Below, one piece after another: positions 47,482 through 50,382 of a stretch of 64,000 nucleotides of DNA. Each line of letters begins with the position of its first letter. Position 1 is the stretch's first letter. Source of the DNA: Allorhodopirellula solitaria (GTDB taxonomy: Bacteria > Planctomycetota > Planctomycetia > Pirellulales > Pirellulaceae); the NCBI RefSeq assembly GCF_007859855.1, contig NZ_SJPK01000001.1, positions 366,091 through 430,090 of the forward strand. The letters are read 5' to 3'. The notes beneath the pieces were generated by a model, which was not told the origin of the DNA, searched no databases, and was given only the letters and a program-made list of their open reading frames with translations. The position numbers and the translations under genes are program-made.

Positions 47482-50382
47482 TCAAAGGGTTTTTCGCAAC
47501 AACTTCTCTCGGCTTGCTTCTCGATGTCGAGCCGCCAGCACCCAAGCGACCACCCCCCATCCCAATGAGGCGAGGGTCAGCATGGGGCGGTGCCACCATG
47601 GGGCGTACTGAAAAGCGATTCGCCATTTCCCTGGCGGGCAGAGCACTCCCTGTGAGAGGAAATCCACCTGAAAGACTTCCGCGAGACGTGAGCTGGTCAC
47701 GCCGGCCACTGGATGCTCTTCATCGCTTGCTCGGCCTGAATCGCGTGGGGTCAGGACCGCCTGCCAATAGCCATCCTGATAGACGGGCCGCGATAGGATG
47801 ACTCGCGGGGCACCGTCGCCTGCTTGCCGCGTGATCTGGTTTGCAATTCGTGGAGGGATTCTCGCCGGGCTGGCCCGCGACTCATAGGCGTAGTCCAGCA
47901 GGAGTTCTCGCCATGCACCGGCTCGATCGGGAGTCAGCGGTTCAAATTTCGTTCGGACCGAGAGACTCGTCGCGGACAGCCCAGACGCGGACTCGGTGAG
48001 CGAGCCATCACGAGGATCGCTGGAATATCGGCTGGTAGTTTCCTCGTGCAGAGCACCGTCCGAGAAGGCTTCCAGGCGGGGAGTCTTGAAGAGTTCACGC
48101 GTAACCACAGGCATCGCCTGCTGAGCTCGCGTTTGCGGCGTCGTAACCTGTCCCCCTCGGCAGCGGAGTAGACCCTCGACGCCGAGCAGTCGGCACCAGC
48201 CTCGCCAATGGTTCGCGGGCAGGTCAGACGCACTGCGATCGATCGTCTTAGCAAAGTGCCAGAACTCAGCCATCTCGCGGGAACCGATCGAGACCAAATT
48301 GTTGACGACCGCGTCGCCATGCTCCAAATGCCAGCGTCCAAAACGAGCGAGCCGGAGGCTGGCCTCGACCGTCAATATGCGGTCGGGATCGGATTGCTCT
48401 GACCATTCCGCAGGAAACCCACCATCTGAATTGATCCGCATCCAGCGGCGGGACGGCTGATCGTCGTGCGCAACGGCGAGTAACCTCGACTCGGCTGCGC
48501 GGTCGACCGTCGGGACGAGCTGATGGTGAGCAACGACGAGGTCCACCGCTAGACAGATCAACCACCACCGCGGGTCTCGCAAGATGCCGATGGCGAGGAG
48601 GACCAGGAATACGCAGGCTACCGAAAAAGTGTACTGAGCGACTGCCACGTCGGGAACGAATGGTCCCCAAAACGGGTCGCTGAGCCGCCCTTCCAGGTTC
48701 GCGACCAACACACCGATCCCCAGGAGAATCAGCCCAGCAACGACGCTGCCGCTGACCCACGCGATCGAGCCTGATCGTTGGGACGCCACGCCGCCTTGAG
48801 GAACCGCACTGGGCCGCACGGCGCGCGTCCGCCAACGCTGCATGACGATTTGAACGTGCATCGACCGGGCGGCCGCGACCGTGATCGCCAAGGCAACAAA
48901 GGGCAGCCACTTAGCAGGATACCGCAGTGAGTCGTAGCCGGGCAGAAACCGATGCAACCATGGGTACACGGGAAAGTACCCTCCCAGTGCCGCGGCCGCC
49001 GGCAGCAAGAACAATACCCATAGCGGCCAGCCAGCGTAGCGTCGGCAACGGGCTGGTGATTTCCACCATCGAATGCCGCCGAACACAATCAGCACCGGCA
49101 ACAGTAGGCCGCCGTAGAGTGACGGGGTCCACAACGCGGTTTCAGGTCGTGTTCTCCCGCCATCGAACAGGATTCGGTCCCAGCGCGAGTTGATCGGCCA
49201 CGGGGAACCGTAAAGATTGGGAACGACCAGCTCCATCCATCGCCACGGCGGTACAGAGAAGGCCAAAGCCTGATCATGAATCTTGGAAATCTCCGGCGCA
49301 CCGGGATCTTGCACACGGTCACTTCGGGCTGACCAGGCCAGCGAGGCGGCGATCTGCGGCGCCGCCAAGATCGACGCCAGCACCACGATCGCGGACATTT
49401 GGCCGATGATCGCAAGGCCGGTCGGCCAATGCCATCTACTTTCGACCGCGAAGCGGTCTTGGTAACCCGACGCGTCAGCGAGGATCACTTGTTCGCCACG
49501 CAAAACACTGCATATTCCTCGCTGACGCGTCGGGTTACCATCGTGATGATGACCCGAACGGGGGAGAGATAGCTGGCATTGGCCGGTCGGCCCCGGGGCC
49601 GGCCGAGGGTCGGATCGACGCGAGCAGAGAATTGCCCACCGGATTGCCCCAATGACGACGGCGACCAGCATCGCATGGAGCGCCGTGGGCGGGTCTCCGC
49701 CGAGGATGATCATTGCCATGGCGATGGCGGGGATGCAGATTGCCTTCGCCCAATCAATGCCGGTTTGGCGATTGGGGAGGCGAATGCCCCAACTGGATTC
49801 CATCCAGCGAATCGCCGCTCGTCCATCGATCCAGGGTGCCATCAGCAGGGGCAACCAGGCGGCACCGACGAGGAAGGGCGGATTGGTCGCTAAGAAGAGC
49901 ACCATTCCTGAGAGCGGGTAGCCCACGCCGGCGATGGCGGCCGACCATGGACTGCATCGCAATCGGCGGGCGAGAGCATAGGCCGTCAATGAGGCGAGGA
50001 TGAGATGCAGCACCACATAGACACCCATGGCTGTTTCAGCCGACCAGGCCGGCGCGTAAACGAGCATCCGCAGCGGGTAGAAGACTGCCGTCGTGGTTTC
50101 ACCGGCCAGCGGCATGCCGGTTTGATCGGATTCGTTCCAGATCGCATCTCCCCATGCCCCCCAGTGCTGCGCCTGGCATTGCTGGGCGACGTACTCATAG
50201 AGAGGCGTGTAGAAATAGCCTACATCGCGAAACGCAAGCCGATCGCGGCCACTGAGAACCCCAGCGAATAGGGTGAGCAGCAGTAGGGGGCCGATCCAAG
50301 GTGCCACCCGGCTCGGTGGGATCGCCCAGGACTCGCGTCCTGGACGCTCGATCGGTGAGGCAGTTTGCTTCGCGACCTTCAC
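47482..50382 (-). CDS. YfhO-like multi-pass membrane protein
   Basis: This 966-residue protein has many hydrophobic segments and fits the YfhO family of bacterial membrane proteins, thought to be GT-C-like glycosyltransferases. Typical parts are FRDVGYFYTPLYEYVAQQ near the N-terminus, LAFSVPPWRWMELVVPNLYG, FPVYPWLHRFLPGYDSLRYP and a large soluble C-terminal third (about 620-920) before a final membrane segment. Translation begins at GTG 50380-50382, overlapping the stop of the mscS-like gene (GTGA). Residues about 281-306, within an Arg/Pro-rich loop, come from an in-frame palindromic insertion encoding GNPTRQRG. A role in glycan modification of the cell surface is inferred. Confidence 0.78.
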   Translation of the reverse strand: MKVAKQTASPIERPGRESWAIPPSRVAPWIGPLLLLTLFAGVLSGRDRLAFRDVGYFYTPLYEYVAQQCQAQHWGAWGDAIWNESDQTGMPLAGETTTAVFYPLRMLVYAPAWSAETAMGVYVVLHLILASLTAYALARRLRCSPWSAAIAGVGYPLSGMVLFLATNPPFLVGAAWLPLLMAPWIDGRAAIRWMESSWGIRLPNRQTGIDWAKAICIPAIAMAMIILGGDPPTALHAMLVAVVIGAIRWAILCSRRSDPRPAPGPTGQCQLSLPRSGHHHDGNPTRQRGICSVLRGEQVILADASGYQDRFAVESRWHWPTGLAIIGQMSAIVVLASILAAPQIAASLAWSARSDRVQDPGAPEISKIHDQALAFSVPPWRWMELVVPNLYGSPWPINSRWDRILFDGGRTRPETALWTPSLYGGLLLPVLIVFGGIRWWKSPARCRRYAGWPLWVLFLLPAAAALGGYFPVYPWLHRFLPGYDSLRYPAKWLPFVALAITVAAARSMHVQIVMQRWRTRAVRPSAVPQGGVASQRSGSIAWVSGSVVAGLILLGIGVLVANLEGRLSDPFWGPFVPDVAVAQYTFSVACVFLVLLAIGILRDPRWWLICLAVDLVVAHHQLVPTVDRAAESRLLAVAHDDQPSRRWMRINSDGGFPAEWSEQSDPDRILTVEASLRLARFGRWHLEHGDAVVNNLVSIGSREMAEFWHFAKTIDRSASDLPANHWRGWCRLLGVEGLLRCRGGQVTTPQTRAQQAMPVVTRELFKTPRLEAFSDGALHEETTSRYSSDPRDGSLTESASGLSATSLSVRTKFEPLTPDRAGAWRELLLDYAYESRASPARIPPRIANQITRQAGDGAPRVILSRPVYQDGYWQAVLTPRDSGRASDEEHPVAGVTSSRLAEVFQVDFLSQGVLCPPGKWRIAFQYAPWWHRPMLTLASLGWGVVAWVLAARHREASREKLLRKTL
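49460..49540. repeat. Palindromic element inserted in frame within the YfhO-like gene
   Basis: The 25-nt arms TGGTAACCCGACGCGTCAGC.. (49460-49484) and ..GCTGACGCGTCGGGTTACCA (49516-49540) are perfect reverse complements around a 31-nt loop. Read on the gene's strand, the element adds codons for GNPTRQRGI and the following residues without a stop. The arms are not needed by the membrane topology and look like a mobile palindrome. Confidence 0.75.

Follow-up and report, generated by a model that had tools for sequence, protein, structure and literature searches.

A 157-bp MITE-like element with a perfect palindromic core, inserted in frame in a putative membrane-protein gene of Allorhodopirellula solitaria

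The palindrome, its borders and the host gene

The window, i.e., the whole stretch of 64,000 nucleotides of Allorhodopirellula solitaria DNA that was analysed, contains a minus-strand gene with a perfect palindrome inside its open reading frame (Table 1). The two arms of the palindrome, 25 nt each, are complementary at every position and are separated by 31 nt. The right arm, read on the minus strand, encodes the peptide GNPTRQRG while the frame of 966 codons remains open, just as the earlier note had described. When up to three mismatches are allowed, the 23-nt arm occurs 61 times on each of the two strands of the 6.8-Mb genome, and its reversed control does not occur at all. The palindrome is real and not a product of chance. 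The window itself holds this single arm pair and one further match, with three mismatches, of a 17-nt part of the arm, the latter at no more than chance level.

Table 1. Coordinates within the window of the host gene, the inserted element and its parts
Feature	Position	Strand	Basis
Host gene; 966-aa product rich in hydrophobic stretches	47482..50382	-	ORF; multi-pass membrane protein by inspection only
Target-site duplication, left copy CCGGTCGG, 8 bp	49418..49425	.	8/8 identical to right copy
MITE-like element, 157 bp, subfamily A	49426..49582	+	Copy boundaries; TIR/TSD test
Left terminal inverted repeat CCAATGCCATCTAC, 14 bp	49426..49439	+	Copy comparison
Small hairpin GACCGC-GAA-GCGGTC	49444..49458	+	Sequence; paired in 157-nt DNA fold
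Left arm of core palindrome, contains 21-nt unit TAACCCGACGCGTCAGCGAGG	49460..49484	+	Arm complementarity; genome copies
Centre between arms, 31 nt	49485..49515	+	
Right arm of core palindrome, 21-nt unit inverted, encodes GNPTRQRG	49516..49540	-	ORF translation and arm complementarity
Right terminal inverted repeat ATAGCTGGCATTGG, differing from the consensus at 2 positions	49569..49582	-	TIR/TSD test
Target-site duplication, right copy CCGGTCGG, 8 bp	49583..49590	.	TIR/TSD test

The similarity among 12 copies, printed together with their flanks, extends past the palindrome and up to ends of the form CCAATGCCATC...GATGGCATTGG. The core had thus been placed correctly by the earlier note, at 49460-49540, but the inserted segment is larger and comprises 49426-49582 plus an 8-bp duplication. 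A BLAST search of the genome with the 157 bases gives 95 matches, which, by eye and after removal of palindromic self-matches, correspond to at least 42 distinct related places, 11 of them aligned over all 157 bases. Two subfamilies can be told apart by their ends, which are CCAATGCCATCTAC in subfamily A and CGAATGGCACTTAC in subfamily B.

Terminal repeats facing each other at a distance of 140-165 nt form 33 pairs in 61 stretches of the genome, a count that retains three pairs (L047, the second in L065, and L092) unlike real copies. The length is exactly 157 nt in 21 of the 33 pairs and 158 nt in another five. The 8-bp flanks are identical in 14 pairs and match in at least seven of eight positions in 19, the remaining 14 pairs having fewer than seven matching bases. 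When the flanks are re-paired as a control, the mean number of pairs with at least seven matching bases is 3.4 and the maximum 11, and for the next 8 bases outward there are never more than five matching. The features of a MITE are therefore present: dispersed copies with a length of 157 nt and no transposase inside, terminal inverted repeats at fixed distance and a target-site duplication. The single-stranded DNA fold of the 157-nt element has z = -9.5, and the RNA fold of the element with its duplications has z = -11.1. The Rfam search gave five matches with E values up to 5, all far under the gathering scores of their families; the scan for promoters and terminators found none, and the collections of plasmid and phage records gave no match at E 1e-5.

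The inserted segment corresponds to residues 268-322 of the host protein, i.e., 55 residues or 165 nt, equal to one element and one 8-bp duplication. From 157 + 8 = 165 follows that the minus-strand gene gains 55 residues without a shift of frame. The host protein has no match in Pfam or NCBIfam and the search for related loci with the host gene found nothing. A search with the protein gives matches in 39 of 60 genomes, its own included. The segment is absent from all 19 homologues that were fetched and aligned, 12 of them from the same genus, and the length around the site differs from one homologue to another, as would be expected of a tolerant loop. Insertion of the element into the host gene is well supported.

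That the segment would instead be conserved protein sequence, or a palindrome formed on the spot when part of the gene was duplicated in inverted orientation, agrees with its maintained frame and its translation as part of the gene; this origin is refuted by the 19 homologues without it together with the many related places in the genome, and its probability is practically nil. The proposal of the earlier note, a dispersed palindromic element residing in frame, is on both counts borne out: the alignment that it called for gives only genes without the insert, as opposed to orthologues all carrying it, and there are dozens of other copies in the genome, as opposed to none.

Insertion sites and coding sequence

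Copies of the element often sit inside other palindromic repeats, GAGCCGAGGGCCGTAAGGCCCCGGG for subfamily A and GAGCCGACGGCGCTAGCCGCGGG for subfamily B (flanks of L031-L067), and the duplicated 8 bases belong to these host repeats. CCCCGGG follows the site in 8 of the 13 full A copies, among them the window copy. AGCCGA, a marker of the repeat, is found within 60 nt of 11 of the 13, but not at the window copy. The gene in the window may therefore have been hit because its site is followed by CCCCGGG, as in the repeat where copies of subfamily A are often located. Nesting of repeat families is also seen in the other direction. In L048 (3100-3232) and L051 (3001-3040) of the same genome, copies of the element are interrupted by a small repeat whose end is ACTAAATCAACACGCCG; in L048, this interrupting repeat is bordered by TGAC at either side. 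Elsewhere in the genome, an IS1182 transposase gene (L091 3030-4937, G000:C5) is enclosed in a chimera to which one A-type and one B-type element have contributed.

The frame that encodes NPTRQRG is open in 12 of the 13 full A copies (the frames of L043 were not counted), usually together with one other frame. Two of the six frames of the element are open, which is no more than in shuffled sequences (P = 0.31), so that selection for compatibility with coding is unsupported. Apart from the window copy, only the copy in L032 lies, among the 13 full A copies, in an ORF of more than 300 codons; it was rejected as an intragenic case, since within its 519-codon ORF it is located ahead of a BNR domain (residues 168-481) and ahead of the apparent true start.

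The same holds when exact 21-nt units are considered. In Neorhodopirellula pilleata Pla100 (G010), 1 of 62 units lies deep inside an ORF of at least 300 codons, when 58% of random positions do so. The corresponding numbers are 30/272 versus 68% in the wider contig collection, 3/33 versus 60% in the element stretches of the own genome and 3/10 versus 57% in the restriction-modification locus L068, smaller genes being uncounted on both sides of these comparisons. Copies of the element are mostly found outside long ORFs, and the window copy is an exception. The suggestion that the element is in general tolerated by proteins is not supported, with units in long ORFs rarer than random and open frames at the level of shuffles.

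There are nevertheless units in other genes. Nine unit-bearing ORFs from the wider contig collection were scanned; SRP54 GTPase, Thy1 and DUF1592 domains are among their matches, two of the nine have no match, and by position neither the SRP54 nor the Thy1 domain contains the unit pairs. The segment 6395-12516 of L068 (G000:C1:209394-215515) is a type I restriction-modification locus with HsdR, HsdM and HsdS (Pfam), and is unusually rich in units, with singles, inverted pairs that differ in their centres, and tandem copies in direct orientation; several of the units are in frame. HsdM of this locus contains NPTRKRG in frame and is thus a second protein of this genome with a peptide of this kind. 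When this HsdM is compared to the solved chain 7vru_A, the 14 residues RDYDGNPTRKRGTQ fall in a gap. However, a homologue in G213 with 84% identity lacks only 15 nt at this place and carries its own unit at the second site, and the size of the HsdM insert is therefore uncertain.

The 21-nt unit and the covariation of its arms

The core is also found in other genomes. With the 157-nt element as query, matches at E 0.01 are obtained in 10 of the 13 genomes of the genus; among the matches listed for these 13, full copies occur only in the own genome, and the best match elsewhere is 78% identical over bases 35-115, i.e., the core. The 23-nt arm with at most three mismatches is present in 39 of 60 genomes, counting its own, the copy number per genome ranging from 0 to several hundred, and the 21-nt unit with at most one mismatch occurs 346 + 328 times in N. 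pilleata Pla100. There the frames around the units carry GTGTTGATTTA external to the arms, similar to the inner repeat of the IS1182 in L091. A small Y1 (IS200-like) gene is also found in N. pilleata (L247 1102-2160, G010:C3), flanked symmetrically by six GTAGCCCCACGCGTNAGCGTGGGG hairpins.

The pattern of an inverted pair matched at least 117 stretches, and all 80 titles listed are from planctomycetes; the covariation, ORF and centre-cluster counts used all 117 stretches, including 37 without a listed title. In a sample of the phylum, 6 of 392 genomes, the own genome included, contain the unit with at most one mismatch, two of them with a single match, and the unit is therefore patchy in Planctomycetota. 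Six viral contigs carry the unit. An inverted unit pair is seen in a viral contig (L343 3885-3942), a possible route of transfer. The literature search found no paper describing the 21-nt unit, and none containing the string NPTRQRG.

To see how arms and centres vary, consider the 142 inverted pairs collected (114 from the wider contig collection, 16 from the own genome and 12 from G010, N. pilleata being represented in two of the sets). Grouped by centre, they give 71 clusters, of which 54 have a single member. Since the arms are prescribed by the search pattern and the centres are not, the unrelatedness of the centres is a result, while the similarity of the arms is not. Within the arms, the two sides agree at the free base N in 72 of 113 distinct pairs, when 35.6 are expected and none of 5000 shuffles reaches this number, and at the M base in 95 of 113, compared to 76.3 by shuffling; both counts are inflated by shared descent of related copies. 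A/A pairs (L150, L153, L156) and C/C pairs (L135 at 5970, L154, L159) occur side by side in a single centre family of one isolate. Template switching has been described as a process that homogenises the arms of palindromes and inverts their spacers (PMC8604942). The arms changing together suggest that the perfect arms are here probably kept alike by such hairpin-dependent template switching.

It is possible, though we would not put it at even odds, that the 21-nt arm TAACCCGAMGCGTNAGCGAGG itself is what is conserved, mobile or selected. It would then be a palindromic module that occurs in Planctomycetota within MITE frames unrelated to each other, with its arms kept alike by template switching, and that also enters genes such as HsdM and HsdR alone or paired. 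The frames would be the CCAATG-ended element here and, in N. pilleata, a frame with GTGTTGATTTA near its ends. If this is true, the module is shared between transposons and is not a property of any single one.

Probable origin of the element and comparable known systems

The reading that accounts best for the window copy, to which we assign a probability of about 0.85, is that the 157-bp element is a MITE, moved in trans by a DDE transposase, that was inserted in frame and is tolerated in a variable loop. The transposase would recognise the ends, 14-17 bp long (CCAATGCCATCTAC for subfamily A, CGAATGGCACTTAC for subfamily B), and would cut its targets with an 8-bp stagger. The insertion would have survived because 165 nt keep the frame, because the inserted frame has no stop and because the site lies in a loop of variable length. 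The likeliest function of the 55 added residues is none.

An autonomous partner with the ends of the element was not found among 100 of the 119 end matches listed or in a looser scan. Convergent ends 0.7-3 kb apart occur once among these 100 of 119 matches, in the chimera holding IS1182. The looser scan gave one more end pair, in L101 (2540 bp, 3 + 3 mismatches, flanks matching in 7/8), taken as chance since no transposase is apparent among the listed ORFs and a 768-codon ORF crosses one end. IS1182 was first thought to be a likely direct partner, with the 157-bp element as its deletion derivative: L091 holds the only IS1182 transposase in the genome that exceeds the family cutoff of 270 bits, with a score of 364, and this transposase lies between ends identical to those of A and B. 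This IS1182, however, carries an inner repeat of its own, CGGCGTGTTGAYTTAGT, the start of which lies within the core palindrome, and CGGCGTGTTGAYTTAGT or a near form of it is also found without A or B ends. Furthermore, the outer flanks of L091 differ (CCTCACGG versus GCTATCGC), which means that the outer ends were not inserted together. In view of the inner repeat and the unmatched flanks, direct partnership was set aside and is now judged unlikely; L091 reads better as IS1182 copies that inserted in two elements and then recombined. IS1272, of the IS1182 family, has been proposed to target stem-loops (PMC5678879), and the IS1182-type repeats here likewise lie inside copies of the palindrome. 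Compared to what is described there, the terminal repeats are different and the window element has an 8-bp duplication.

Another question is whether the core arms are REP/REPIN-type sequences moved by a RAYT (Y1) transposase, the outer 157-bp frame being secondary. This idea concerns the core only and is compatible with the MITE explanation of the whole element; we regard it as tentative. It agrees with the occurrence of the unit both singly and as inverted pairs (the 142 pairs in 71 centre clusters), mostly outside long ORFs, with the Y1 gene of N. pilleata, whose six flanking GTAGCCCCACGCGTNAGCGTGGGG hairpins, three of them with a TTAG head, are 3 bases off the unit, and with GTAG-headed forms of the unit in G051 and G058. 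Against it, the other 46 of 47 distinct Y1 stretches have no unit at up to four mismatches within the 1.5-2 kb taken, and the unit itself is in none of the 47, which were chosen from 146 Y1 matches in 18 genomes (L306, L307 and L308 repeat L247, L252 and L254). The head is GTAA in 49/65, 56/72, 205/268 and 4/11 units of four sets and GTAG in 3/65, 0/72, 1/268 and 1/11, the sets having been fetched with TAA-naming patterns that favour GTAA; both window arms are headed GTAA and lack the GTAG or CGTC head of a REP. The stem within one unit is weak, with -6.1 to -8.1 compared to -16.9 kcal/mol for the REP, and the 8-bp duplication, which is not known to be part of Y1 chemistry, is a feature of the outer frame. 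REP families with GTAG or CGTC heads are reported from Planctomycetes (PMC3733652). As described there, the GTAG-tagged REPs and their dimers resemble the present units in being short, single or in inverted pairs, and mostly extragenic with some intragenic cases; the present units differ from them by the GTAA head, the weak internal stem and the lack of any RAYT found flanked by the unit.

Rickettsia palindromic elements are preferentially present in frame inside genes. The units here show no such preference, the proportions in long ORFs (1/62, 30/272, 3/33 and 3/10) all being below random. The comparison with them, made in the earlier note, is valid as an analogy but does not extend to a preference for genes. 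In their general features, the Rickettsia elements, which are mentioned in PMC3733652, are also palindromic and dispersed and can add a peptide in frame; the differences are the depletion of the present units in long ORFs, the MITE ends and the duplication. QMITE1/2 of Coxiella burnetii (PMC5896051) are likewise small and non-autonomous, with dozens of copies, some of them in frame in ORFs. From the account given there, they differ in belonging to another host phylum and in hitting genes of known function at their 3' ends, while the present element has a demonstrated 8-bp duplication and is frequently inserted into another palindromic repeat.

MITEs and REPs inside ORFs have thus been described before (PMC3733652, PMC5896051). 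Less ordinary in the present case is the repeated use of one 21-nt arm, combined with many centres and placed within at least two distinct frames, together with the joint change of the arms. What appeared as a single odd palindrome becomes an insertion with exact borders, and it points to a repeat unit common to many planctomycete genomes, the arms of which co-evolve around unrelated centres. This raises two testable questions, i.e., by what means long perfect palindromes are maintained as such, and for what reason the same short unit is found again in transposon frames that differ from each other. The result further suggests to annotators that a peptide of the NPTRQRG type, when met in a planctomycete protein, can be mobile DNA and need not represent a protein motif.
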